From assembly GCA_029834535.1 (NCBI GenBank), contig JAQMWT010000317.1:186001-250000 (forward strand): a DNA stretch of 64,000 nucleotides, read 5' to 3'. The DNA comes from Chrysophaeum taylorii. Lineage: Eukaryota > Sar > Pelagophyceae > Pelagomonadales > Pelagomonadaceae. Under the pieces are notes generated by a model. That model made no database searches. It was not told the origin of the DNA and saw nothing but the letters and a program-made list of their open reading frames with translations. The position numbers and the translations under genes are program-made. Positions 3,897 through 57,940 of this stretch are shown piece by piece. How positions within the stretch are numbered: position 1 is the first letter of the stretch; the number at the start of each line of letters is the position of its first letter.

Positions 3897-4784
3897 CTAG
3901 CAGGGTGTTGTGGGGAGGCGGTCGTCGTCCTTCCCGAGGAGGAGGAGGTCGTGCAAGGGGGGTCGCGGGGCGTCGCGGATGTCGAATGGCCCCGAGGGCG
4001 GCGCGTCTTGGACGAGGCCGTGGGGCGTGTCGGCGTAGAGGACTTTGACAGCGTTGCCGAAGACCATGGTGGAGGGGGGCTTGATGCCGTTGAGGTCGAC
4101 GAGGTCGGCAATGTCGGAGAGGTCGCCGAGGAGGACGCGCTGGTCGGGGCAACTCGCGCGCTCGACGACGAGCGCGGGGCAGTCCGGAGGGAAGCTCTTC
4201 GCGACGAGGGTAGTCGCGACATGGCGGATCCTCCCGACGGCCATCAAGCAGACAACCGTCTGGTGCGGGTGGTAGTCGGGCATTTCCGGCGAGGAGCCGG
4301 CGCGGCCGTGACCGGTCGTGATGACGACCTGGTGCGCGGCCCCGCGGTGCGTAACCGGAACTCCCGCCGCCAGGGGGGCCGCCAAGGCAGCGCTCACCCC
4401 CGGCACGACGCGGGGCTCGACGCCGAGTCTCTCCCGAAAAGCGAGGACCTCTTCGCCTCCCCTCCCGAACACGAAGGGATCTCCGATCTTGAGGCGAACG
4501 ACCGTCCGGTTCGCCTCGACGGCCTCGCAGACCCAGTCGTAGATCTCCTCTTGCGCGACCTCGGCACAGCCCGGTCGCTTTCCGGCGACGCGAAGCTCGC
4601 CTGCGACGAGGCTCAAGATCTCGCTCGAGACGAGCCTGTCCGCCACCACGAGGGCTGCGGGATCGCTGATGGCGCGCACGGCCGCCACCGTCAGGAGCTC
4701 GGGGTCCCCCGGCCCGGCGCCGACGAGCGATATCTTCGGGGCGAGGGCCGTCGCGGAGCACATAAGCCACCACCACCACCACAT
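3897..4784 (-). CDS. UPM1: Uroporphyrinogen-III C-methyltransferase (SUMT), probably plastid-targeted
   Basis: 295 residues. The enzyme uses two S-adenosylmethionine to turn uroporphyrinogen III into precorrin-2, the first committed step to siroheme. Family motifs are clear: [12 protein letters not shown] at the start of the domain, [22 protein letters not shown] and [20 protein letters not shown]. The N-terminus is MWWWWWLM then CSATALAP; a short hydrophobic signal ending in an ATALAP sequence resembles the heterokont ASAFAP plastid signal with Leu for Phe. A second ATG seven codons later (4763) is possible. The frame stays open upstream but has no supported start because it runs antisense into the ferredoxin gene. 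The start codon faces that of ferredoxin with 24 bp between. No Met8-like oxidase/chelatase domain is fused, so siroheme completion must be encoded elsewhere. Confidence 0.9.
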
Positions 4785-39591: not shown

Positions 39592-39802
39592 GCTTAACAA
39601 CAAGAAGAAGAGCAATCTCAATAATGGATGGTGAGTGCGGTAGAAGTAAGTAATTGTTGGGATGCAGTTGGTGCGTCAGTTGGTGGTGTGCAATACATAA
39701 TGTGAGAACCGACGACGATAGGGTTGAGGATAAGTATCGTCAAGGAGGCTGTCAATCAGTCAGCACATGTAGGGAGTGAGTGACGTACCTTCGGAGCGGA
39801 TC

Positions 39803-42800
39803 ATGAAGGCTTTGTTGTTGTTGTTATCGTTGGTCGGCAGGGCCGGCGCGCTGTCGCTGCGGTACGAGCCGTCGCCGACGTCGCCGACGTACGAGACGGT
39901 GGTTCGGAAGGAGTTCAACAGCAGCGATCTGCCGAGCTATCCCGTGGACGCGCAGGGGGCAGTGAAGCACGGGGGTCTCGGGCGGTATCTGCACACCGTG
40001 CGGAAGGACTACGACGCCGCGGAGCGGGAGTACCAGAAGGCGATCGAGGCTGATCCGACGAACTCTGACGCTCACGCGAATTACGGGTGGCTGTTGCACG
40101 ACGTGCGCAAGGCGTTCGACGCGGCCGAGCGGCAGTACCGGCTGGCGATCGCGGTAGACCCGAAGAACGCGTACGCGCACACGAACTACGGGTGGTTGTT
40201 GCACGATGCGCGGCAGGATTATGTGGGTGCGGAAAAGCACTACAAGTTGGCGTTGGAGGCGGATCCGGGGAACGCGTTCGCGCACACGAATTACGGGTGG
40301 TTGCTGCACGACGGGAAGAAGGACTACGAGGGCGCCGAGAGGCAGTACCAGAAGGCGATCGAGTCCGACCCGAAGAGCTCGTACGCCCATACGAATTATG
40401 GTAATTTGCTCAAGGCGCGTAAGGAGTTCGAAAAGGCCGAGAAGCACTACTTGCTCGCGTTGGACGCGGATCCGAATCACTCGATGGCGCGCGACAACTA
40501 CGGCGTGTTGTTGCACGCGCGGAAGGATTACGATTCGGCCGAGCGCGAGTACATGTTGGCGCTGGAGGCGGACCCTCGGAACTCGTACGCCCACAACAAT
40601 CTTGGGATGCTGCTGCACTACGTCCGGTCCGACTACGACGGCGCCGAGCGCGAGTACAAGGCGGCGATAAAGACGGATCTGACGAATTCTGACGCGCACG
40701 CGAATTACGGCAACCTGTTGAGCGAGGTGCGGAAGGCGTACAACGCCGCCGAGCGCGAGTACAAGAAGGCGATCGAGGCGGGGCCGAACTCGTACGCTCA
40801 CAACAACTACGGGACCTTGTTGTTTAAGCGGAAGGATTTTGACGGAGCCGAGCGGCAGTACAAGCTCGCGATCAAGGTCGACCCGAAGAACGCGCACGCG
40901 TTCACGAATTACGGGAACCTGCTCAAGCAGGTCCGGAAGGATCTGAACGGGGCGGAGGCTGCGTACCGGAAGGCGATCGAGGCGGATGTCGGAAATTCGG
41001 AGGCTCACGCGAACTTGGGTAACCTCTTGTTCTACGACCGCGTCGGCGGCGGCGGCGACCGCGTCGGCGTCGAAGAAGAAGAAGAGGAGGACCGCGTCGG
41101 AGGATCATCTTCATCTCGGAGGACGACGACGACGACGACGACTTTCGTCGTTAAGCAGCTGCTCGAGGAGGCGGAGCGCGAGTACCGGCTGGCGATCGAG
41201 TGCGACCCTCGGAACTCGGACGCCCACAACAATTTTGGTAATTTGCTGCGTCGGATAAGGGGGTCGAGCAGCACGTACGCGGCCGAGATCGAGTACAAGC
41301 TGGCGATCGAGGCGAATCCGGCGAACGCCGACGCGCACAACAACTACGGCGTGTTGCTGATGGGAAAGGGCGAACTGGACCTGGCCGAACACGAATTCAG
41401 GGTGGCCGTCGAGGCGGACCCGAAGAACGCGAACGCGCGCGCGAACTACGGAATTCTCCTCCGACAAAAAGATAAGCTCGAGCTCGCCGAGGAGCAGTAT
41501 TTGGAGGCCATCAAGATCGACCCGCACAACGCCAAGGCGAGGTCGAACTACGCGGACCTTTTGGTGGCGCGCGAGGACTTAGTGGGCGCCGAGAAAATGT
41601 ACCGGCTGGCGCTGGATTCGGATCCGTCGAACTCGAAAACTCACAACAGCTTTGGGAATTTGCTGTACAAGCTGCGACCCCCGTACGCGGCGATGCGAGA
41701 GTTCGAGCTCGCGGTCGAGGCGGACCCGAAAAACGTGGACGCGAGGGTGAATTTGGGGAATTTGCTATATAAGGACCGCGACGACGCGTCGAACGCCGAG
41801 CGGGCTTTCTTGCGGGCGATCGACGTCGATCCGACCCACGTGTTCGCGCGCACCTCGTACGGATCTTTTCTTTTGAACGCAAAAAACGATCTCGCGGGCG
41901 CCGAACGGGAGTTCGTGAAGGCGATCGAGGCGGCGCCCGCGCACTCGGAGGCGCGGCGAATGTACGGAGGGTACCTGTTTTTGCGCAAGGATTACCGTGG
42001 CGCCGAGAAGGAGTACAGGCTGGCGTTGGACGCGGATCCGTCGAACTCGAAAGGCCACAACGATCTCGGCGTTTTGTTGGGGCGGACGCGCACGGCGTAC
42101 GCGGCCGAGCGCGAATTCCGGCTCGCGATCGAGTGCGACCCGTCGAATGCCGACGCCCACAACAACCTCGGGGACCTGCTGTTCCGCGTGCGAAAAAGAT
42201 ACGACGAGGCCGAAGACCATCTGAAAAAAGCGATCGACGCGGATCCGCGGCACGCGATGGCGCACTCGAATTACGGCGTCTTGCTCCAGCGGCTGAAGAA
42301 ATTCGAGCTGGCCGAGCGCCAGTTCAAGCTCGCGATCCAAGCGGATCCCGCGAGATCGCAGCCCCGGCACTTTTACGCGAACTTCCTCGCGTACCGGAAG
42401 GACGCGGTGTCCGCGGAGCGCGAGTACCGGATCGCGCTCGAGAGCGATCCGCAAAACGACGACGCGCGCGTCAACTTTGGCAACCTCCTCTACAACATCC
42501 GGCCGCCGTACGCGGCGATGCGCGAGTACCAGATGGCGCTCGAGGTCAACCCGAACAACACGATCGCGCGGACGAATTTGGGTAACGTGTTGTACTTGGA
42601 TCGACGGGACCCGGACGGCGCGGAGCGCGAGTTCGAGATGGCGATCGCGATCGACCCGAGCTCGGCGTACGCTCTGACGCATTTCGCCAATTTCCTGCTG
42701 TTTGGAAAAAAAAAGGACGAGGAGGCCGAGCGGTACTACCGCCTCGCGATCGAGGCCGACCCGAAGCACGCGCTGTCGCGGTCGAACTACGCGAATTTTC

Positions 42801-45358
42801 TCGCCGTCCAGAAGAAAGACTACGAGTCGGCCGAGAAGGAACACAGGCTCGCGTGTTCGCTCGACCCCGACTCGAGCTTCTGCCACAACAGCTTTGGGAA
42901 CTACTTGTACGCGGTCCGGCCGCCGTACGCGGCGATGCGCGAGTACCAACTGGCTCTCGAATGCGATTCCGACAACGTCGAGGCCCGCGTCAACCTCGGA
43001 AACTTGCTGTACAAGCACAGGAACGATCCCGCGGGAGGGGAGCGCGAGCTCGTGTTGGCGCTGAAGACGCGCGGCTTCCGAGAGCGCCAGATGGCCGCGG
43101 CCCACGTCCAGTACGGTCATTTTTTGGTGGCGGCGAGAGGCGACCTCGAGAAGGCGGCGCGCGAGTACGAGCGAGCGTTGAAAATCGACCCGACGAGCCC
43201 GGAAGCGCTGACCGCGTACGGCGCTTTTTTGGTCGTCGCGAAGGACCCGGACCTGGCCGAGCGCCAGTTCAGGCTCGCGTTGCGGATCGACCGCGACTTC
43301 CCGGACGCGAATTCGCACTACGCCAAGCTCTTGTACGAGATTCGGGGAAATTCGGAAGACGCCGAGTACCACTACGAGCTCGCGCTCAAAGAAAAGCCCG
43401 ACCACTGGCACGCGCGAACGAACTACGCGTGCATGCTCGAGAAGATCAGCACGCCGGCGGCCGCGGAGCGCGAGCACAGGAGGGCGGCGCCCCAGCACGC
43501 GGAGGCGCGGGCCAACTACGCCCGGTTCCTGTTCCGGGTAAGGAAAACGTACGCCGCGGCCGAGCGCGAGTTCAAGAAGCTGTTTTCTTCAGATTCAGCT
43601 TCAATATCGATGGCTCACGCCGAATACGGTTTGTTGCTGCACGTCGTGAAGAAGGACGTCGAGGGCGCGCGACGCGAGTACGAGCGAGCGTTGAAAATCG
43701 ACCCTTCGAACGCCGAGGCCCGCGCGAACTACGGAACTTTGTTGTTCGAGAGAAACGAGAACCGCGCGGCCGAAATCGAATACCAGGCGGCGATCGACGC
43801 GAACCCAAAGCTCGCTTTAAGTCACGTCCTGTACGGCAAGTTTCTAGGCGCGACCCGAACCGCGTACGCGGCAGAGCGCGAATTTCAGATCGCGATCCAA
43901 GTTGATCCTTCGAATTCGGAAGCCCACCACGCCTACGCTTTGTCGTTGTGGAAACGAGGAGATAACAACAACCTCGCCGACCGCGAGTTCCAGCTGGCGA
44001 TCTCGAACAACAAAAAGAACGTCGCGGCGCTCGTAGACTACGCGTCCTTTCTTCTGAAATCGGCGACGAGCGGCGGCCCCCCCGAGGCTGTGGCGCGTTG
44101 TTTGAATCTCGCCTTGGAGGCGGAGCCGTTCAACTCGGAGGTCCTCGCGGCGTACGGCGCCTTTTTGTTGCAAGTCAAAGACGACCGGAAGGGGGCGGAA
44201 CGGTACTTGAAGGACGCGTTGAAGGCGAATCCGCGGAATAGCGCCGCTCGCCTCTCGTACGGCAACCTCCTTTTAAAAAAAAAGAGCCCCGAAGCGGCCG
44301 AAAAACAATACAAGCTCGCGATCGAGGTCGACCCGTCGAACTCGGACGCTCTCACGCACTACGGATCGATCCTTCGAGGCCGAAACGACACGGACGCGGC
44401 GGCCGAAACGTATCAAAAAGCTATCGCGGCCAACCCGAAGAACGCGATGGCCTACGCGCACTACGGCACGATTCTCCAAGGGAAAGAGGCCGAGCTCCAG
44501 TACAAAAAGGCCGTCGAGGCCGACCCCTCCAACCCCGAAGCCCAGACGTCCTACGCGCTCTTCCTCCACGAAAGAGCGGACGACGAGAAGGCGAAGGAGG
44601 CCTACGAGGCCGCGATCGCCGCCGGCGGCACGCGCGCCTTTTTGGGCTACGCGATGCTCCTCCACGACCGCGAAGATTACGACGGAGCCGAAGCCGCGTA
44701 TCGAAAAGCGATTGCCGCGAATCCCGACGATGCCAAAGCGAGGTTGGGTTTGGGCTGGTTGTTGCTCAACGTCCGTCAAAAATACGACCTCGCCGAACGA
44801 GAGTATCACCTCCTCGCCACCAAACTCGACCCTCAAAACGCCGAGGTTCACCTCGTGTACGGCGTCCTCCTCGACGAGCGGAAAGACTACGACGCGGCTC
44901 AAAAAGAGTACGAAATTGCGATCGACCTCGACGCCTCGTCGTCCGAGGCTCACAACAACTACGCGAACCTTCTCTCCAACGTCCGCAAGGACTACGACAA
45001 GGCCGAGCACCACTACCAGCTCGCGATCGATGCGGACGACCTCAACTCGGACGCCCACAACAACTACGCCCGTCTCCTCAAGACCGTCAGAAAAGACTAC
45101 GACGCGGCAGAACGCGAGTACCAAAAGGCCATCGAGGCAAACCCCCAGAACTCCATGGCCCACAACAACTACGCCTGGCTCCTCCACGACGTCAAGAAGG
45201 ACTACGTCGCGGCGGAACGCGAGTACAAAAAGGCCATCGAGGCGGACCCGACCAACTCCCTCGCGCACAACAACTACGGCTGGTTGCTCCTCACCGTCCG
45301 CAAGGACTACGCGGCGGCCGAGACCGCCTTCCAGAAGGCCATCGAACTCGACGATTAA
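39803..45358 (+). CDS. Giant secreted/lumenal TPR-repeat protein
   Basis: 1851 residues. A signal peptide (MKALLLLLSLVGRAGALS) precedes about 48 tandem TPR-type units of 34-37 residues. The consensus is of the kind HNNYGxLLx..RKDYDxAEREYxxAIExDPxNSxA, typical of TPR superhelices with Pro at the end of helix B. Such arrays bind proteins or peptides. The repeat is broken once, at about residues 410-450, by a low-complexity insertion (GGGG, poly-Glu, poly-Thr), encoded at about 41035-41160. No catalytic domain is fused. Repeats near the ends are almost identical (RKDYDAAEREYQKAIEA), while the middle ones are more diverged, which fits growth by unequal exchange. The ATG at 39803 is chosen over the upstream GTG because it begins the signal peptide. 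No introns are needed. Confidence 0.9.
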   Translation: MKALLLLLSLVGRAGALSLRYEPSPTSPTYETVVRKEFNSSDLPSYPVDAQGAVKHGGLGRYLHTVRKDYDAAEREYQKAIEADPTNSDAHANYGWLLHDVRKAFDAAERQYRLAIAVDPKNAYAHTNYGWLLHDARQDYVGAEKHYKLALEADPGNAFAHTNYGWLLHDGKKDYEGAERQYQKAIESDPKSSYAHTNYGNLLKARKEFEKAEKHYLLALDADPNHSMARDNYGVLLHARKDYDSAEREYMLALEADPRNSYAHNNLGMLLHYVRSDYDGAEREYKAAIKTDLTNSDAHANYGNLLSEVRKAYNAAEREYKKAIEAGPNSYAHNNYGTLLFKRKDFDGAERQYKLAIKVDPKNAHAFTNYGNLLKQVRKDLNGAEAAYRKAIEADVGNSEAHANLGNLLFYDRVGGGGDRVGVEEEEEEDRVGGSSSSRRTTTTTTTFVVKQLLEEAEREYRLAIECDPRNSDAHNNFGNLLRRIRGSSSTYAAEIEYKLAIEANPANADAHNNYGVLLMGKGELDLAEHEFRVAVEADPKNANARANYGILLRQKDKLELAEEQYLEAIKIDPHNAKARSNYADLLVAREDLVGAEKMYRLALDSDPSNSKTHNSFGNLLYKLRPPYAAMREFELAVEADPKNVDARVNLGNLLYKDRDDASNAERAFLRAIDVDPTHVFARTSYGSFLLNAKNDLAGAEREFVKAIEAAPAHSEARRMYGGYLFLRKDYRGAEKEYRLALDADPSNSKGHNDLGVLLGRTRTAYAAEREFRLAIECDPSNADAHNNLGDLLFRVRKRYDEAEDHLKKAIDADPRHAMAHSNYGVLLQRLKKFELAERQFKLAIQADPARSQPRHFYANFLAYRKDAVSAEREYRIALESDPQNDDARVNFGNLLYNIRPPYAAMREYQMALEVNPNNTIARTNLGNVLYLDRRDPDGAEREFEMAIAIDPSSAYALTHFANFLLFGKKKDEEAERYYRLAIEADPKHALSRSNYANFLAVQKKDYESAEKEHRLACSLDPDSSFCHNSFGNYLYAVRPPYAAMREYQLALECDSDNVEARVNLGNLLYKHRNDPAGGERELVLALKTRGFRERQMAAAHVQYGHFLVAARGDLEKAAREYERALKIDPTSPEALTAYGAFLVVAKDPDLAERQFRLALRIDRDFPDANSHYAKLLYEIRGNSEDAEYHYELALKEKPDHWHARTNYACMLEKISTPAAAEREHRRAAPQHAEARANYARFLFRVRKTYAAAEREFKKLFSSDSASISMAHAEYGLLLHVVKKDVEGARREYERALKIDPSNAEARANYGTLLFERNENRAAEIEYQAAIDANPKLALSHVLYGKFLGATRTAYAAEREFQIAIQVDPSNSEAHHAYALSLWKRGDNNNLADREFQLAISNNKKNVAALVDYASFLLKSATSGGPPEAVARCLNLALEAEPFNSEVLAAYGAFLLQVKDDRKGAERYLKDALKANPRNSAARLSYGNLLLKKKSPEAAEKQYKLAIEVDPSNSDALTHYGSILRGRNDTDAAAETYQKAIAANPKNAMAYAHYGTILQGKEAELQYKKAVEADPSNPEAQTSYALFLHERADDEKAKEAYEAAIAAGGTRAFLGYAMLLHDREDYDGAEAAYRKAIAANPDDAKARLGLGWLLLNVRQKYDLAEREYHLLATKLDPQNAEVHLVYGVLLDERKDYDAAQKEYEIAIDLDASSSEAHNNYANLLSNVRKDYDKAEHHYQLAIDADDLNSDAHNNYARLLKTVRKDYDAAEREYQKAIEANPQNSMAHNNYAWLLHDVKKDYVAAEREYKKAIEADPTNSLAHNNYGWLLLTVRKDYAAAETAFQKAIELDD

Positions 45359-45722: not shown

Positions 45723-46142
45723 TGGAGAGATTGATTTGACCCTCTCCGGGTACATGGTAGAGACGGCGTGCAGTCTTCGGCGTGTACAGACCACATTCCG
45801 CTTGTCACACACATGCTACTACACAAGGTAGGGGGTTTTTTTAGGCCCGAACTCCTTAAGGACATTAGGTCCTATAGAAGCGTTTACACTGACCACGGGG
45901 AACGAAGTCTCTGTTCATTAAACAGAAAACCCCGTACCCGACGGCAAGCACCTGGAGGCCTACTCCATGTTGGAAAAGAGCCTCAGACTGGGTTCTTCAT
46001 AGTCGTGAAAGAAAAAGGGGCTTAAGGGTAAGGAAAAGGAAGAATGAGGGAAAGCCGTATTATGGAGAGAAAACCCTCGTGTAGAGATAGGTGTGAAAAT
46101 GTTCCAGTGTCGCACACATAAATAATAGTGTGGCTCTCTGGA
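45723..46142 (-). repeat. 3' LTR
   Basis: About 420 bp, related to 57541-57940. On the coding strand it starts TCCAGAGAGCC and ends TCTCTCCA. It contains a 4-bp duplication (TTGA) and a longer CA/T run relative to the other LTR. Confidence 0.9.
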
Positions 46143-46152
46143 CCACCCCCTC
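46143..46152 (-). other. Polypurine tract of the retrotransposon
   Basis: GAGGGGGTGG on the coding strand, immediately before the 3' LTR. Such tracts prime plus-strand DNA synthesis. Confidence 0.75.
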
Positions 46153-48405: not shown

Positions 48406-49197
48406 TTAACCATCTTGTTGAGCTATGGGTTGTTGTAAGCCGAGTAACGTGCGAAATCTGCTGAAGAGTGGAGCTCCAAAGGGTTTGGTAAATCCATCGG
48501 CGATATTATGGGTACCGGAAACATGATGTAGGCGTATTCGTTTTAACTGTACGTAGTCGCGTATACGGAACCAGCGTGTGCTGATAGCTTTAGCCTTAGT
48601 CGCGCTGTCGGGGTTATTTGATAGATGAATAGCAGAGGCCGAATCTCCAAGTATAGGACTGTTACGTATGAACGACATGTCCGATGGGAGGGGATTGTCG
48701 TGAGCATCATAATCTAGTAGCAGATCTTTCCCTGAAGGTTGGCGGAGATAGAAGTGAGGATTTATAACGAATGCCATTTCCGTTAGCAATTTGCGTAACC
48801 AAACCACATCATCGGCACACATATTGAGGGCGATAAGTTCACTCTCATGCGTAGAAGTAGCTGTAATAGGTTGCAGCTTAGACTTCCAAGTGATGAGAGA
48901 ACCAAACAAAAAGATAGCGTAACCGGTTGTAGATTTGCGGTCTTGTTCATAAGAAGGTGCATTATCGGCATCAACGAATGCGACCAGTGGATCAAAATTA
49001 CCTGAATTAACTTGTTCTTTAGTGTAGTCCAACATGGTGGCCATGTCAGTACGATTACCGATAAGAAGTCGAAGATGGTCCATTAGAGCGGAAGAACCAG
49101 AGTAGTACCAGAGGCGAAGATTGCGATTTTCGGGCTTGCGCAAGTAGCGGAGCGTTCCTGTTAGTACTTGAACATGCAGAAATGCTGGATTATGCAT
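48406..49197 (-). pseudogene. RNase H segment of the copia polyprotein
   Basis: 263 codons. The copia RNase H is intact in this block: VDADNA, THESELIAL and GDSASAIHL provide the D-E-D metal ligands, and RLHHVSGTHNIADGFTKP is the closing motif. RNase H removes the RNA strand during reverse transcription. The frame does not join the upstream RT blocks without shifts, so the whole polyprotein is called broken. Confidence 0.85.
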
Positions 49198-50674
49198 TCC
49201 TCGAGAGCAACGACTAAGCTTTGGGATAAATCAGGGCGACAGGCCAATTGGACAAACGTGAGCTTGCCGAGTAGAGTAGAGAAGGTATGAAGGATGAACT
49301 TGTCCATATCAGAAGATGGCTCTCCAGTTTTATACGTGGTTGATGGTGACATCGGTGTGGAAGTGGGACGTAACTGCATTAAAATGGGGTACTCTTCGAA
49401 CAATGCGTCAAGTTTAGCCTGACAGTCCAGTGATATAGAGCCATCAGTTGTACGCGTTATGCGCATGCCTAGAGAGTATGGACTTCCTCGAAGGTGTCGA
49501 CTGAGTATTCCTTTTTCAGGGCTTGCTGGAACTCACGACGTAGAGTTTCCGAAGTACAAGTAATGACGACGTCGTCTACTGAGAGCGTGCAAATTAGAAA
49601 TGTAGCGTCAGCTTGGACTTTAGCGTAAATGCATGTGTCTGTTCGAAATCGTGTAGCCTAATGAATCAAAGAAGCGTTTATGGTTTGATTCCAAAGGGCA
49701 GGGCTCTGACGCAATCCATAGAGAGATTTAAGTAGCTTTGGGAGACGGCGGCCTTGGTATTTAGTATCTTCGGGATCGAGAAGGTAAATGCCTTGTGGCA
49801 GTTTGACATAGACATGAGAATCGATGGGAGCTTGAACAAAAGCGTTAGGGACGTCGACATGGTAGACGGGAAGTCGCAGATGAGCTGCTAGCGCCAAAAC
49901 ACAACGGATGCCGGTAAGCTGTGCCATAGGGCTGAATGTGTTGAAGAAATCGGTGCCCAGAGAGGCTAAGAATCCTCGTAGGACCAGGCGTGCTTTATGT
50001 TTAATGTACTGACCAGCAGCGTTGGTTTTTATACGTAGGACGAGACGGGTGTCAATAGGCTTTGAGTTGACCATTGGCAGCGCTAGTTTAAAGCAGCCAA
50101 ACTTAACAATGTCAAAAATCTCTTTGGAGATGGCAGCAACATAAGCTTTGCGATCAGCGTCTGAGAGACCTTTGAGGCAGTTCAACTCATATTCATCAAT
50201 TTTGATATCTTTGGCTTGAATCTTGTATTCGTCCGAACCAACCGTGCTGGGGTCATGAGTCGTCGTCAGATGAGTAATTGCGTAAGAAGCGACATTATCG
50301 GGCAGATGAGCGTGATCGGGATCTTCGACGAGTTGAACGACTAGTAGAGGAGCATCACCAAGGTGGGCTTCAATGTAATGCGATTGCACGGTGATATAGT
50401 CTTCGATGGCGGAGAGATGAGGCTCGGAAGCACCATAAGAAGCGTCATTATGATCCAAAATGGAGTGGGGCGTGAACAAAGCATAAGCATATTGAGCGGG
50501 AGGAACTTGAAAGGCGTGAGCATGTTCAGAAATTAAATGAACGAGAGCTTGAGGAAGGTGAAAGTCTGCAAGGTTGACGTCGTCGCAGAAGTGAACATGA
50601 GGAGCATCAGGCGATGGGTGGCTATGGCTCCTATGACACATAACTGAAGAGGACTGTGAAATCGCTTGGTGCAC
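49161..50674 (-). pseudogene. Reverse transcriptase segment of the copia polyprotein
   Basis: RVT_2-type RT in three frames: KARLVLRGF, TFSPMAQLTGIRCVLALAA, VYHVDVPNAFVQAPI, KLPQGIYLLDPED, LKSLYGLRQSPALW (to 49658), then FLICTLSVDDVVI (SVDD at 49571-49582) and DGSISLDCQAKLDALFEEYP. The catalytic tetrad normally reads YVDD in copia elements; here the Tyr is Ser. Both Asp are kept. The N-terminal 150 residues of the block are His/Asp/Ala-rich linker from the integrase C-terminus. Confidence 0.88.
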
Positions 50675-50774
50675 ATGGTGATGAAGGGATGGTGTAAATT
50701 CCCCTCTGGAGGTATAGCCGTCCAGTGGATGCCATGAGCGAGATGAAGGGAGTGGAGGGTGGGGTCGCAGAATG

Positions 50775-51961
50775 TTATGTACTGCTTGGAGAGGTCATAC
50801 TTGAAGTCGGCAAGCGTACCACCGGCTTGTTTATAAGCGGCAACAGTAGGCGAAGCAATACGAGTAAGAACATCCTTGAGATTGGTTTTGCGACGAGGCT
50901 GAGGGTGATGAGGACCACGGGTGAGACGGAGGACATCCTGGGAATAGAGAGACCGATAAGATGGTAAAAGTGGCAGAGTGTCGGGAGACACTTCAGATGT
51001 AGGTGTGGTGGCGGAAGTAGCGGGTGCAGGAGCAGCTGGAGCAAATGCGGGAGCGGGAGAGGGAGCATGGAGATGAGAAGAAGGAGTCCCCTCTCATGGT
51101 CAGTGTCGGTAGGCATAGCATTCCCCCTCTGCGCCGCATCATTGGGGGTGCTGTGAACAGAGAAGGGAATGTCGGGTGAAGGTGCGGGAGGTGGATGCTG
51201 TTCATAATCAGGAGGAGATTTAGAAATAAGATGAGGAAAAGTCAGTTTAGAGGAAACACGGACTTGACCGTTTTCAGGATTAAGGACAACATCGGCTAAA
51301 TGATTAACATGGGGTGTTATTAAAGGGTTTATAACGTTAGCACCGCATAAGTAGATGTAGGGACGACATCGGGGTTCATATTTATGAAATTCGTTAGGTT
51401 CCAAATGCAGATAACAAACAGAACCAAAAGGTTTGAGGTAGTCTTGTTGGGGAACATTACATTGGTCTAACAAAACTTGTTGGGGGCTTAGGACTTTATT
51501 ATAAATACGTTCGAGGGAAACGTTAGGGAGGAGATTATACGATTGGATAGCATGTATAACAGCCCACGGGTAGTGTGGTGCCGGATCTGTTAGGGGTGAC
51601 CTTTATAGGATACATTAAGCATATGCCGGAGTCGTGTAGACGCGGCAGTGGCTATGTGACCAACAGCGGCTTCGACTTCATGATTAAAGACATGTAAGTA
51701 AGGGGGGAACGCGGACATATTAATACCATGTTCCACACGGAAGGGGGTTGTAACATGCTGAGATAAATAGGGTTTAAAGGAATCACAATAGATTTGTTTT
51801 AGTTGTACATGAACATAAGTAGAGCAAAAATTGCGGACAAACTCAAGGGCGTTACAAAATTCGCTGGAGTTAGTGCTACGACAAAAGTACACTAACAGAA
51901 ATTTAGAAATGAGACACTTGAAAACAATGATATGTCGAAAGGATCCCCATTCCGAGAGCAC
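50775..51961 (-). pseudogene. Integrase core and C-terminal segment
   Basis: Frame-shifted from the preceding block. CDGGYVSVLSEWGSFRHIIV holds the first catalytic Asp, LKQIYCDSFKPYLSQHV the second, and FNHEVEAAVGHIATAASTRL the Glu, giving the D-D-E set of a retroviral-type integrase. After another shift, YLKPFGSVCYLHLEPNEFHK and RPYIYLCGANVINP are the SH3-like element that follows copia integrases. A Pro-rich linker leads to RT. Confidence 0.85.
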
Positions 51962-54327
51962 AGATACGTAACCACCGTCACATGCCCAGGCTTCACCAGG
52001 TTGAAAAATTTTTTCGAATGATGGTTGCTTGATAAGGTGGTGTGGATGAGGAAAGCGTTTTTATGAATCGTACAATCCACACAGAACTTACGGTAGGGTA
52101 CGTCAGATGGGTGGTGTCCAGGACTGGCAATAACCTGAACAGCTTTTATGGCTTGAGAATCACTGGAATGGTGAATGTTGTGAAAATTGGTAGCTCGTTG
52201 TTGCGCATCTCGAAATGCAAGGGTGCCCCTGGCATGGACTTTCTTATCGAAGGGCGCATGCTTCTCATGGAGCTGTCTTGGCGTTATAAGGGGTATTTGT
52301 TTTTCTTTAGTAGGAGATGATATATCTGCGGATGAGATGTTAGAGAGGAAAGCATGAGCTACTGAATCAGTATGAAAAGAAGGAAGTTCGTGGTTAGAAG
52401 TGATAGTATCACAACATAAGAGTTTTTTATTGGAGATGTAGAACATTGTAATGGAACTCTGGTGTAATGTTAAGGATGTATCTGTTGGGAATATATTTGT
52501 GAAGAAGGTTGACCTATAGTTTTTGGTTAGAGGAGCGTGATCAGGGTCAAACGATGGTGATAGTGTTAATATACGCAAGTCATAAACAAGCTGACACAAA
52601 TGTTTATAAATTGTATGATATGTTCCAGCTGGAATAGCATTTGCGATGATATCACAGCATAGGTCAGGGGACAAAGACAAAAGAAAATTGATTTGGTACG
52701 CTGTGAAGTTATTGGCGCGTGCCAATTCGCGAGTTGAGTAGTGTCGAATGCGATCGAGTCGTGGATCGTACACCAGCATATTAGCAAATCCACGAATGGT
52801 AGGAGTGGGAGTGTATATAGAGTGAACTTTGGCACCCATCTTCCTATCGCTTGATGTTATAAAGCCCAAATATCTGCTTTGGGACAAATGCATGTCACTT
52901 AAAGCAAATATTTTGTCGATAAATTCGAGACGATTTTCCTGAGGGTAGAAGACAAAAGAATCGTGAAATACAGGAGAAGTATAGGGAACCAGTGCTTGTA
53001 CTAGACGACGCGTGTCTTGATTTTCATTATTATGATGGTATGCTTGGCAAAGCCAAAGAAAACCGGTAACTGGTTCGAGAGAAGCAGTCTTATCGATTCC
53101 GGCATCGTGTGTTAAAAGGGTGTAGGTTTCGCCAAAAGCATTTATGTGTGCCTGGTATTTAGAAGAAGAGTTAGAAACTGTTATGTCTCCGCCTGTATGT
53201 CTTCCACCAGTGATGTAAATGATGGATGAAGTAGAGGATTTATTTAAGAATAACCTGTGAGATGGTTGGTTAGATTCGATAGTTGTAATACGAAAGGACA
53301 CAGGTAATGTGATGGATTTAGGGAATAATCGTCCCATAATATTATAGAGGAGCACAAAAGCTTTGAGTTCAATAGGGGATCTCATGCAAGCAAGTGGTTT
53401 TCTTGAATTAGTCAAGAATCCCAGGCGAAAGTTAGAAATGCCCTCCATTTCATCTTGACTGGGATGTTCGACTGTTTTATTAGAGTGCAGACGAAGGAAC
53501 AGCATAGTTAAGGTTTCAAGCTCAGTCACAGTTAAGCGCACGGATCCTGTACGACTGAAAATATTGTAGGTTTTAGGTGTGGACACGAATGGTATGTCAG
53601 GAAAGACCTGCGTCCAAGGTTCGTCGACTATTAACTTGCGACTGATGGAATTAGCGTGGTCTGCAATATCCAGAAAGGAAGTGACTCGTTTATTAGGCCA
53701 TGAAAGCAGATCAAGAGGGCCGGTGTTATATTTGCGTGCGACGAGGATCCATCTTTCTCTGGCTTGATAATCTCCACATAGATAGCATGGAAATCGGTCA
53801 CATATGTCCACCGTATAGTGCATCGTTGAGAAGATGAGATTAGCAACTCGTATATGATCTTCATACGATGCGGAGTGTGGTGGAGTCATTTCCATGAAGA
53901 GAACAAGCGGCTTTAAAAGCTCAAGTACACTTAGAGCACTTGGGAACAAGGAATCATCCATATCGCGCTCGAAGGTGGAAATGGATCTCCCATTGATTAT
54001 GTTGCGATTTGTGCATGGTGATGTCAATTCCACTATGTCAGTGTAATATCGTGCACGTTCAACGTCCGATGCTCGATGGAGATATGTCAAAAACTTAGGT
54101 AGGGATGGGAAAACTTCGATGGAATTACCAAAACGTCTTCGTAGCATGTGCGTGATATTGTCGTCGCTCTCAACAAGAACTTTAACGTTGATGTTGATTT
54201 GCAAGTCATTAGAAGCGCAAGCCAAGAATGCAGGAGTGGACATCCCAGAGCAAAGTAAAGTTACTGTAGGTATTCGTGGGCTAGGAGATGAAGTTACTGT
54301 ATGGAGCAAACGTGTTGTAACCTTGCG
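51892..54327 (-). pseudogene. Cytosine-C5 DNA methyltransferase domain plus integrase zinc finger (pol segment)
   Basis: About 810 codons, open from just after the UGA at 54328-54330. Numbering from the codon at 54309: motif I TLLCSGMSTPAFLA (17-30); motif II-like VLVESDD; motif IV ELTSPCTNRN (94-103) with the catalytic-type Cys99; VLFMEMTPP (136-144) where motif VI has its Glu; motif VIII YQARERWILVA (181-191), the QxRxR signature; a 310-residue target-recognition region; PTIRGFANMLVYD (503-515); motif IX HYSTRELARANNF (523-535); motif X IIANAIPAGTYHTI (554-567). Order and spacing match C5 methyltransferases. Residues about 700-750 form the HHCC integrase finger (FHNIHH...CVDC). The enzyme would methylate cytosine in DNA, possibly its own cDNA (inference). 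Motif IV has SPC instead of PPC. Confidence 0.8.
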
Positions 54328-55140
54328 TCATACAGGAGGTGGGAAATGCTTGCGTATGTAAGGCAGCTGCGAATGCATTGACTCCAGGATGGTTTTAAGC
54401 CATGGGACGTAAATTACTCGTTCCATGAGGGTGGAATATAGTTTGAGCATTTCGCGTTGTTCATTAAAAGCACATAGTCTGAACTGTAGTGAGCGAAGTT
54501 CCATTTTACGCGCTTTTGCTTGTTGTAGCGAGTAAATTGGTAGAGTTGGCAACAGGTTACTGAGTCTAAACAAAGTAATCTTGACATTATCATCAATTTT
54601 ACTCTGGATAGATGATTGTCCTTTAAATTCAACTCCATAAAGATGTATACCAAGTTTATCTTCTCCCCATTGAGTCATACTGATGATGTGCAGATCGGGA
54701 TCGTTATGGTCGTTTTGCTTGGGTAGAAAAAGCGCAACGTCTAGCTTTACATATCCCACATTTGGATGCTTTGGGAGAGCGGGAATGACGGTCCTTATAA
54801 TCATAGCATGTGTGATTCTCTGCGTATCCGTAGCAGTCTGGATAGCAGGTGATAAGGACTCGGGTAGCTTTACGATGTGGATAGGATCAGCATAACGTTT
54901 AAAGTTAATTACATGTTGAGAAGCACATGTGTCAGCATATCCTGGCGTAGTCATTAGCGGCAAATTGTACTCGTTGTACAGTTTAAGCATTGTTGCATAA
55001 CAGGCATGTGTTGAGCTTTGACCAAACACGTACTGTGTCATGAAACTTTGCGTTTGTTCGGAAGGCACAACGACGAGTGTAAAACCAGTATTTAATTTTG
55101 GTAGCAACACAGGGGGATCTGTACCATCTTCATTGGTTAA
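54328..55140 (-). pseudogene. Aspartic protease segment of the copia polyprotein
   Basis: About 270 codons, starting 4 nt before the gag stop in another frame. YADTCASQHVI corresponds to the D-S/T-G/C-A-S active-site loop of copia proteases, which cleave the polyprotein. The frame ends at a single UGA (GTA TGA CGC), after which the same frame continues into the methyltransferase. Confidence 0.75.
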
Positions 55141-57058
55141 TTACTGGGGAGCTCAGAGTGCGAGGAAGTTTCCCGAGCTTGACGACGAACGATAGCATTC
55201 TGAGCTTTAGCATTTATGTGCTGCAATAGCGGCTGAGGGATGTTATCGATTTCATCATCTTTAATGGACAGAAAAGTGTGGAACATTTTCTCTGTATCAG
55301 CAGTCCCCCTCTGCTCCGCATCACTGGGGGACGCTTCAGGAGCAGATGTTTCAGTTTGATACTTTTCTTCTGAAACAAGAGATTCCTTATCGGCTTCTAA
55401 GAGGTTCGATATGGTATTGGACATAGTATCAACTCGAGATAAGTAGAGATGAACTTGGGTGGCTTCATCCGGATCTAAGGACTGTGTCGAAGCTTGAGAA
55501 GCGGTTGTCCAGAGGGTACTCAATAAGCTTTTCATTTCCTCCTGTACCATTTTAGAGTCGGTGGAAGGATTGGGATTCGCTTCCTGTAGTTTATCAAACA
55601 GGTGGCGAAGACGATCAACTTGATAAGTAGCCCGGTCCATAAGAGACATATTAGAGCGCGCATTTCGGTTAGAGGAAGGTGAGTAGACAGGACGATCGAG
55701 GCTGGTACCTTTGACGTTATAATTTGAAGGTGGACGATAGTACGACGTGTCACGGGGTGAGATTGTCGATGCTTTATCTTTTGCATTACGAAGCTTACGA
55801 GCGTTGAAGCCAGACTGTCCAGCTACAGTAGCTAACAACGAGTAAGCGTTGTTTAGAGAATCGTGGGATTGATGAATAGTGTCCATCAATAATACCTTAG
55901 GTGGCTTGGTAGCGGTAGTACCAGGGATGTAAGGGATCCAAGAAGCGGGTTTATCCAAGCGTCGGTTAGAAGAAAACTTTGTCTCATTATATATCTTTAA
56001 CAAGAATTCCAATAGTGGACGAACGTCGTTAGGATCAACTAGCTTTAACAATTCGGGATCGTGACTCGAGTTGTTACTAGAGCGTGTCTCGTAGAGTTTA
56101 CACCATTCCAATAAAGATTGAGAATAGCGCTCGTGATCCGAGGGATTAGCATATAGACGGTAGATCTCCTCGTGAGCTTTAAGAGTGATTATGGAGTTAT
56201 TAAATTTGATTGATGCTTCATCATTATTTAATTGCTGTGCCTGAGATTGAAAGGCAAGGAGTTGTTCGACAAATACATGGGAATACCAATTAATATTTAT
56301 AGACATTCGATTAAACTGAGATTTAAGCTCAGTTACATCTGTACAAGACACTGTCTCATAGTAATGATAGGCTAAAAGCATTACAGCTCGTAATTTATTG
56401 GGATGTGCAGGGCTTGCATAAATTTTCTTTAGTTGAGGCCACATAGCGAGAGCGGGCTTTTCCTGGGACTCGAGGTTAAAGAATTTATACAAAAACCAGC
56501 ATAAGTTTCGCAGTGTTTGATCCAATCGGCATTAGAGAGACCTGTAAAGGATATGTTAGTTAAAGATGAATCATACACAATTGATTTAGGAAATCGGGTA
56601 TCTAATAAAGTGAGGACATGTTTAACATCCTCATTTAATTCAGGACGGACAAGGTTGTACGACTCTTGGTAGTAAAGTCGTTCAAGTCTATTACGGGCAT
56701 CAACCGTTAGTTGATGGGAAGAGTTGACGTGCCAAGTCTTTAAATGTTCGGGCAGGGCATCTTCATCAGGTAAGTTTAAATCGTTAACTTGTTCAGCTTT
56801 CCATTGAGCGAAGATGATATCAACTTCTTGTTCAAGAAGTTGATTATATTCCGGAGCATTCCGGGTGTAAGCTTCATATGAATCAAAGCAGAATAACGCG
56901 TCCACATATGGACTTGTCATATGCCTGCGAAGCGTTTCAATTTGCAAGCTCACCTTGGTTGAATTATCTTGGAAACGCAATCCTGCGTTAATTTTATCAA
57001 CGAGGATTTGTTCTTGTTTGTAGATATCCGTGGTAGATATTGTTTTTTGTTTTGACAT
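55137..57058 (-). pseudogene. Gag segment of the copia element
   Basis: Starts MSKQKTISTTDIYKQEQILV (ATG at 57058). The first block ends at 56429 and a second in another frame runs from 56525 to 55137, overlapping by about 96 bp; a -1 shift would join them. The protein is helical and polar, without a CCHC zinc knuckle. The second block ends in an acidic region and QLP-type tail. Position after the primer-binding site and before protease identifies it as gag; sequence similarity was not needed. Confidence 0.7.
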
Positions 57059-57521
57059 GATTGTGACCTATTAAGGGATAGGTTAGAGGATTGATAGACA
57101 GATTCGACACATAAGAATGAAGGGTTTCTCAAGTGCGGGTTCTATGTACAGTACGCGATTTTAAACGTGGGCTTATTGACAAGACCAAACAAATCAACAT
57201 GCTATTTAAAACAGGGTGACTTGAGACTGAAGAATGGATTAGTTCTCGAGCAGTCAGTCTTTTGTTGGGGAATGGAAGGAAAACCCGTACAAGTTTCCGC
57301 GGCTTGTATAGGAAAATTTTAATTTTATTGGTTATGCGAGTGCATATGACCAGTGACCGACCCAACTCGGTCACAAACCAATTTAACTGGTGGGCACATA
57401 CCGTCACACAACAAATATGTACAGTAGACCACCGCCAAACACATTGTCGCATTGTACTCGTGATCAGGCGTAAATTGATCATTCGATTTAGACGTACAAC
57501 ACAGTTGGGCTGACACACCTA

Positions 57522-57540
57522 CGCATCTGGGCCCATAACC
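57522..57540 (-). other. Primer-binding site matching the initiator tRNA-Met anticodon arm
   Basis: Plus-strand CGCATCTGGGCCCATAACC abuts the 5' LTR. Its core CTGGGCCCATAACC equals the anticodon stem and loop (CAU anticodon) of eukaryotic initiator tRNA-Met as known from animals. The minus-strand RNA would pair with that part, and the primer's 3' end would be the cleaved anticodon arm, not the CCA end. Confidence 0.8.
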
Positions 57541-57940
57541 TGGAGAGATTTGACCCTCTCCGGGTACATGGTAGAGACTGCGTGCAGTCTTAGGCGTGTA
57601 CAGACCATTCCGCTTGTCACATGCTACTACACAAGGTAGGGATTTAGGCCCTAACTCCTTAAGGACATTAGGTCCCATAGAAGCGTTTACACTGACAACG
57701 GGGAACGAAGTCTCTGTTAATTAAACAGAAAACCCCGTACCCGACGGTACGCACCTGGAGGCCTACTCCATGTTGGAAAAGAGCTTCAGACTGGGTTCTT
57801 CATAGTCGTGAAAGAAAAGGGGCGGAAGGGTAAGGAAAAGGAAGAAAGAGGGAAAGCCGTATTACGGAGAGAAAACCCTCGTGTAGAGATAGGTGTGAAA
57901 ATGTTCCAGTGTCGCACACATAATAGTGTAGCTCTCTGGA
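57541..57940 (-). repeat. 5' LTR
   Basis: About 400 bp, the upstream LTR relative to the minus-strand coding region; promoter and start of the genomic RNA are expected here. It matches 45723-46142 with about 15 substitutions and several short indels. Confidence 0.9.

Follow-up and report, generated by a model that had tools for sequence, protein, structure and literature searches.

The stretch of DNA analysed here (G000:C317:186001-250000, 64,000 nucleotides, called the window below, from a genome of 70.8 Mb in 697 contigs) carries a Ty1/Copia retrotransposon whose Pol polyprotein has almost certainly gained a cytosine-C5 DNA methyltransferase (MTase) between the protease (PR) and the integrase (INT). 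This assessment draws on the sequence, on copies of the element elsewhere in the genome and on a model of the catalytic core. An initial annotation, made from the letters of the window, had proposed such an element, and the order of the open reading frames (ORFs), the copies, a chain of homology to known enzymes and the core fold have borne it out. The wider explanation that we favour, with moderate confidence, is that the element makes and packages its own cytosine methylase by means of readthrough of a conserved UGA codon lying between PR and MTase.

Identity of the methyltransferase domain

The ORF that had been singled out, at 51892..54327 on the minus strand (811 aa), was recovered exactly. 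Motifs I, IV, VI, VIII, IX and X of a C5 MTase, under names and definitions that we take to be the usual ones, are all present in it and in that order, as the initial annotation had read them, the ninth being best described as IX-like.

54241..54267, minus strand: motif I, TVTLLCSGM; C-S-G in 20/20 sequences
54007..54030, minus strand: motif IV, ELTSPCTN; catalytic Cys at 54013-54015, kept in 20/20 sequences, with Pro before it in 19/20
53878..53898, minus strand: motif VI, FMEMTPP; the Glu is retained, with M where the canonical ENV has Asn
53749..53778, minus strand: motif VIII, CGDYQARERW (QxRxR), from the sequence
52768..53730, minus strand: long stretch separating motif VIII from motif IX, located where a target-recognition domain (TRD) would be, from its position; dN/dS 0.083 (ratio of means)
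52714..52746, minus strand: motif IX-like RHYSTRELARA, from the sequence
52624..52647, minus strand: motif X, IANAIPAG, from the sequence

The Cys of motif IV, the Glu of motif VI and the QxRxR of motif VIII are invariant in all 20 sequences compared (19 from family A, to which the window copy belongs, and one from a related group, A'), and they recur in P0001 and P0002, two relatives from outside the genome. The key residues named at the outset (the Cys of SPC, QARER and ANAIPAG) are thus all in place. The Asn of the canonical ENV is absent from the window copy, the A' copy L067, P0001 and P0002, all of which have EMT; the MTase of a third group, family B, has the canonical ENV.

The relationship to known C5 MTases is drawn through a chain that leads from family A to the MMETSP transcript P0001 (41% identical to the family A MTase), from P0001 to family B, and from family B to PF00145. 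A search with the PF00145 profile, suggested in the initial annotation, succeeded for the proteins tested from family B and from two Gypsy-type groups, C and D, which lie above the Pfam cut-off, and it reaches family A only by way of the sequence link to B. Searches of protein databases with a profile of the A copies and a second profile returned two relatives in all, one from a transcriptome and one from a metagenome. Against the PDB, profile A1 matched nothing but one unrelated entry (E 0.85), A2 matched a cytosine methyltransferase (E 0.064) besides an unrelated entry, and for A3 the match was a cytosine methyltransferase (E 0.18); the window MTase sequence alone had no match there. Scans of IMG/VR gave no relative, and P0001 compared with phage records gave 16 rows in which 21-24% of the query aligned at about 31-34% identity (E 0.5-1). 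Because the family A MTase has at least 64 matches within its own genome, a subfamily fragment containing motifs IV, VI and VIII is 43.8% identical to the window MTase, and the MMETSP transcript is 41% identical, a chance origin of the ORF is excluded.

A model of the N-terminal core (53677-54285) has a Rossmann-type MTase fold. In the VIA-align comparison of this model 49 of the 50 neighbours listed are C5 MTases, and the Z values of DNMT1, DNMT3, bacterial MTases and DNMT2 differ by no more than 2.

Several results weigh against this identification. Neither the window MTase (at E 1) nor the A' ORF matches PF00145 in Pfam, and the window sequence alone found no match among 5293 candidates in a search of 5.8 billion proteins. 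The hhalign comparison of A with B is weak without P0001 (E 0.016, probability 2.8) and reaches a probability of only 37.8 with it, where one of 60 shuffles of A against C/D reached 34.2. When the core model was compared with the PDB by Foldseek, dehydrogenases and other Rossmann proteins led and no C5 MTase was among the 50 shown; the full-length model, with a pLDDT of 32, was discarded. Structure prediction, which had also been proposed at the outset, therefore upheld the Rossmann core in the N-terminal part and failed for the full length. The short-chain dehydrogenases in the top Foldseek rows and the lack of a direct Pfam match could be taken to mean that a generic Rossmann or dehydrogenase-like domain has been mistaken for an MTase, but the VIA-align neighbours, the homology chain to B and PF00145, and the six motifs in order with invariant catalytic residues make this highly improbable. 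As judged from the homology chain, the core model and the catalytic residues, the segment is a C5 MTase.

Comparison of family A with the host DNMT2 and DNMT5 by hhalign gave 21.4 and 21.0, and the best of 60 shuffles were barely lower (20.5 and 20.8). Descent from the host DNMT5, with which the domain has the CSG of motif I in common, was considered and received no support from BLASTP.

The element, its copies and selection on the domain

The element occupies 45.7-57.9 kb of the window, where GC content is lower (0.44, as against about 0.61). The direct repeats at 45734-46143 and 57547-57940 bound this minus-strand element of about 12.2 kb and are the long terminal repeats (LTRs) of a Ty1/Copia element, so that the window copy has the paired LTRs of an LTR retrotransposon. 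Its parts are as follows.

57547..57940, minus strand: 5' LTR; blastn against 45734-46143 gives 379/410 identical, 16 gap columns and 15 substitutions in 394 aligned bases; the element reads right to left
57527..57540, minus strand: primer-binding-site-like 14-mer adjoining the 5' LTR, CTGGGCCCATAACC on the plus strand, with one occurrence there within the window
56429..57067, minus strand: gag-like ORF, first part, 212 aa; by position only, no Pfam match
55137..56531, minus strand: gag-like ORF, second part, 464 aa, in another frame in the window copy; by position only, with a sub-cut-off Pfam match to an unrelated family
54328..55140, minus strand: PR ORF, 270 aa; active-site-like DTCAS at 54919-54933, no Pfam match
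54328..54330, minus strand: UGA codon sharing the reading frame of PR before it and MTase after it; context UGA-CGC
51892..54327, minus strand: MTase-bearing ORF, 811 aa, starting directly after the UGA that closes the PR ORF
52558..54279, minus strand: C5-MTase domain, family A, about 574 aa, motifs VIII and IX being set apart by a long insert
52072..52200, minus strand: INT zinc finger of HHCC type, HHPSDVPYRKFCVDC, inside the 811-aa ORF; joined to the INT core in four other A copies compared
51590..52060, minus strand: INT core, in another frame in the window copy; PF00665 (rve) E 3.6e-4, below the curated cut-off
50775..51602, minus strand: INT end, SH3-like region; PF25597 E 5.9e-6, 26.6 bits, just under the cut-off of 27
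49658..50794, minus strand: Copia reverse transcriptase (RT); PF07727 (RVT_2) E 2.1e-28
48406..49230, minus strand: RNase-H-like end of pol, from position and the motif GTHNIADGFTKP; no RNase H match in Pfam
45734..46143, minus strand: 3' LTR, blastn pair of the 5' LTR

The PR-INT-RT order together with RVT_2 places the window, A' and B copies in Ty1/Copia, with rve below its cut-off in each and PR recognised by motif. Here we take DTCAS to be the PR active-site motif, the HHCC finger to belong to INT and GTHNIADGFTKP to be an RNase H motif. The 14-mer CTGGGCCCATAACC presumably corresponds to the anticodon arm of initiator Met-tRNA, which it resembles; half-tRNA priming is known from copia retrotransposons, and the match at 57527-57540 fits it. 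The last 55 or so codons of the 811-aa ORF are out of frame with INT, so that the MTase proper spans approximately 52558-54279. Reading the pol region as PR, MTase and INT was right as to order; the 811-aa ORF itself holds only the MTase and the finger, PR lying upstream beyond the UGA and the INT core in the next ORF. The window copy is broken, with two gag-like ORFs, a frame break in INT, and RT and RNase H spread over several frames. Its target-site duplication candidates are of 5 bp only, and one, TGGAG, is also present at the inner LTR edge.

Three Copia groups of the genome (A, A' and B) have an MTase seated between PR and INT. In the A' copy L067 a single ORF of 1691 aa encodes MTase, INT and RVT_2 (E 7.7e-42), and the B copy at C96 has PR (DGGAS), MTase, INT and RVT_2 (E 4e-39) in one open frame of 1952 aa. 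The search for further copies that the initial annotation had called for thus found the MTase segment in the copies recovered, long open frames among them. Among the MTase matches listed (56, 35 and 105 places, with fragment rows and family B left out of the count), an A or A' MTase lies no more than 5 kb upstream, on the same strand, of at least 53 of the 150 RVT_2 places scored. Chance nesting or misassembly, by which a host MTase gene or another element would have come to lie inside one Copia copy, finds its only support in nested or recombinant pieces such as L022; the number of loci (dozens), the uninterrupted frames of 1691 and 1952 aa and a dN/dS of 0.09 refute it, and it can be given almost no weight. 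In L022 itself (positions 4-1209) an A' MTase fragment runs into family A protease-ORF sequence shortly before an A copy, as a recombinant or nested pair.

The median dN/dS of the family A MTase is 0.091 over 171 pairs, from 19 sequences without in-frame stops in the domain (the window copy and 18 of the 29 other copies), a sample biased to intact copies; the 11 copies left out comprise eight with stops and L011, L015 and L017, which are without. As a ratio of means, dN/dS rises from 0.068 in the catalytic core through 0.083 (TRD region) and 0.089 (around motifs IX-X) to 0.120 in the tail. On these comparisons the MTase domain of this element family is kept by selection. A C5 MTase within the coding region and under purifying selection is also what marks the DNMT-bearing retrotransposons.

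A genome search with PF00145 gave 124 matches, 37 of them examined, from 123 of 474 candidates scored. All 28 of the matches L033-L060 belong to family B. Six others (L061-L066, on G000 contigs C456, C238, C677, C268, C260 and C57) are of Ty3/Gypsy type, with the PF00145 domain behind a region that we take to be PR-like from its features, which has no Pfam match; the Gypsy-type loci scanned have RVT_1 and RT_RNaseH. The two Gypsy-type groups, C and D, show 37% identity in the MTase. A further 59 places match positions 1-77 or so of the profile only.

The reverse transcriptases of A and B are 40% identical over 190 aa and their MTases are related by sequence; the three Copia groups most likely go back to one acquisition in a shared ancestor. 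C and D, of Gypsy type, look like a separate capture of an MTase. Comparison of A with C/D by hhalign gave no signal, and since no relation is detectable at least two captures are likely. Matches on G000:C10 and G000:C297 occur at similar spacing with equal or near-equal scores, as if these were two haplotypes of one region.

Rfam and tRNA scans of the window gave no match. Outside the element a 1860-aa TPR-repeat ORF with 105-base tandem units lies at 39776-45358, the 3' LTR of the element beginning about 375 bases past its end.

Probable readthrough of the UGA and a proposed life cycle

Of 30 family A copies, 29 have TGA at the PR-MTase junction, the exception being L002, where an apparent indel (near locus position 3933) places an ATG in frame with the MTase there. 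The A' copy L067 has TGA-CTA. When the whole genome was searched for A'-type junctions with a 24-base pattern in which the codon was left free and up to two mismatches were allowed, 103 occurrences were found, and none with the reversed pattern used as a control. At the 100 junctions listed the codon is TGA in 98, TTA in one and CGT in one, and the bases around it vary, often synonymously. For at least 45 of the 100, a listed A' MTase match follows at a distance of 222-614 bases, and the codon is TGA in 44 of the 45. The earliest Met of the MTase-bearing ORF in the window copy lies beyond the CSG of motif I, so that a full MTase would require readthrough, barring a non-AUG start. Retention of a UGA between in-frame PR and MTase together with the lack of an early Met makes readthrough the simplest route to the MTase. 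UGA-C and UGA-CUA are leaky stop contexts, and an in-frame stop conserved between two coding regions, in UGA-C context and as UGA-CUA in L067, suggests programmed readthrough.

Against this, L067 has a further in-frame stop (TAA) 38 codons upstream of the UGA, and just 45 of the 100 junction places can be paired with an A' MTase match in the list. Downstream of the UGA the RNA showed no unusual structural stability in one A and one A' copy (z 1.20 and 0.07 over 110 nt, pseudoknots being outside the model). In the B copy PR-MTase-INT-RT is in a single frame and needs no readthrough.

In the explanation that we favour, Gag and PR would be translated first, and a minority of ribosomes would pass the UGA at the end of PR; it is likely that a longer PR-MTase-INT-RT product arises in this way. 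Readthrough would keep the Pol product scarce relative to Gag-PR. Placed as it is within Pol, the MTase probably arises along with the copying and inserting enzymes of the element; its yield would then be as small as that of INT and RT, and the three would be packaged together. Once packaged the MTase could methylate the new double-stranded cDNA, or the target site at integration. By analogy with DIRS-Dnmt3 elements, we consider such joint production, packaging and action on cDNA or target site to be slightly the better supported possibility. New copies would then land already bearing the host mark, which the host DNMT5 would maintain, and the gain could be that no response to unmethylated foreign DNA is raised, or that a tolerated chromatin state is favoured. 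A benefit from pre-marked copies is speculative, and that the element steers host silencing is conjecture.

Possible substrate of the domain and comparison with known systems

The domain may have a DNA-methylating role. Base composition speaks against a strong role at CpG: no CpG-decay footprint was seen in 28 sequences. C/T differences among copies are 0.119 at CpG, 0.109 at CpA, 0.087 at CpC and 0.134 at CpT, a comparison blurred by coding constraint, and the observed/expected (o/e) CpG of the element, 0.94, is low only beside CpG-rich host DNA (1.33 in the left and 1.11 in the right flank within the window). The LTRs have lower values still, 0.72-0.75. It could be that the domain is a true C5-MTase homologue that now binds nucleic acid or modifies RNA, such as the genomic RNA or the tRNA primer, and is no DNA methylase. 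The missing footprint and the EMT in place of ENV are in keeping with this, as is the report that the SymbioLINE DNMT gave no DNA methylation in yeast, RNA methylation being proposed in passages of that paper (PMC5890265). The invariance of the catalytic Cys, the motif VI Glu and QxRxR in 20/20 sequences and the long region in the TRD place point the other way, and a seat beside INT would favour a DNA substrate; we regard such a binding or RNA-modifying role as unlikely.

Another possibility concerns the host chromosome. Among the PF00145 matches examined the only host-type ones are a single-frame DNMT2 (L031, G000:C634:8824-9801; E 7.7e-39 to the DNMT2 of PDB 1g55) and a DNMT5-like gene (L032, G000:C621:16962-17498; 2086-aa open frame, E 3.7e-129 to PDB 7r76, Rad8). 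The DNMT5 of C. neoformans is described as having maintenance and no de novo activity in the part of PMC9246332 consulted, and the element MTases have hundreds of matched places. The MTase might therefore work chiefly on the host chromosome, methylating it de novo for DNMT5 to maintain, so that the elements would set the host methylome. A DNMT3 could be missed, however, with 123 of 474 PF00145 candidates scored and 87 of the 124 matches outside the examined set, and the host DNA of the window is over-represented in CpG (o/e 1.33 and 1.11); we give this reading a small share of the probability. A minor chance also attaches to a more sweeping version, in which the host kit would consist of a maintenance-type DNMT5 and DNMT2, and de novo methylases would be supplied by retrotransposons (Copia A, A' and B and Gypsy-type C and D, from at least two independent captures and at hundreds of matched places) and packaged through UGA readthrough in A and A'. 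Insertions would be born methylated and perpetuated by DNMT5, and establishment of the methylome would have been taken over by parasites.

The genome has 80 matches to the light-harvesting-protein family PF00504, which indicates a photosynthetic alga and allows no finer placement, such as the heterokont-like one of the initial annotation. Tandem arrays of light-harvesting-protein genes, mostly at about 1.2 kb spacing, lie at G000:C88:35406-41267 and G000:C539:24843-30127.

If the reading that we favour is correct, such elements may write epigenetic marks themselves. The presence of several divergent Copia families beside Gypsy-type ones suggests that algal retroelements have taken up a cytosine methylase more than once, with selection keeping it, and that the preferred place for a captured methylase is directly behind the protease. 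Through the conserved UGA, MTase dosage would be linked to that of RT and INT, and the question of whether an element methylates its own cDNA becomes directly testable. If the nuclear methylase of the host is DNMT5 only, the system could also show whether a host methylome can originate from selfish DNA.

Among the literature entries listed, no Copia element with a C5 MTase is described. New as far as found are the Copia lineage, the placement between PR and INT and the conserved UGA, as well as the occurrence of both carrier types, Copia and Gypsy-type, in a single alga, and the relatives from transcriptome and metagenome data. One sentence in PMC12344493, citing the 2018 paper of de Mendoza et al., puts DNMT3 members in 'LTR Copia and DIRS' elements; this wording seems to be a slip, since passages of the cited paper (PMC5890265) say Gypsy.

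In those passages DNMT-bearing LINE, DIRS and Gypsy elements are described, in the dinoflagellate Symbiodinium and the charophyte Klebsormidium nitens as the initial annotation had noted, together with an abundant Symbiodinium Copia superfamily without any DNMT domain. A, A' and B, as Copia elements with RVT_2, fall outside these classes. KnitGypsy-Dnmt3 of K. nitens likewise has a C5 MTase in the Pol of an LTR retrotransposon, many copies and a Ka/Ks of its own below 0.2 (PMC5890265), but it is a Ty3/Gypsy element with a DNMT3, whereas in A, A' and B, which are Ty1/Copia, the MTase between PR and INT is highly divergent; the Gypsy-type C and D are nearer to it in element type. SymbioDIRS-Dnmt3 and SymbioLINE-Dnmt are retrotransposon-borne C5 MTases too, in tyrosine-recombinase and LINE elements unlike the Copia groups; DIRS-Dnmt3 domains gave de novo CG methylation in yeast and cDNA self-methylation was proposed, and in the parts of the study consulted CG depletion is given for SymbioLINE only (PMC5890265). 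A review notes DAM- and DCM-encoding Ty3/Gypsy and DIRS retrotransposons in stramenopiles and in red, green and charophyte algae (PMC6338049), so that C and D may belong with these, their novelty then being smaller than that of A, A' and B; the word 'copia' does not occur in the review text. Sola1-1 of Ectocarpus is, like A, A' and B, an algal mobile element with a DNA methylase, but according to passages of PMC12477816 it is a DNA transposon with a ParB-like domain and an N4-cytosine/N6-adenine methylase domain, another methylase class. In Tca2 of Candida albicans a UGA also separates an upstream from a downstream ORF, there between gag and pol as excerpts of PMC2194720 have it, and here after PR and ahead of the MTase.

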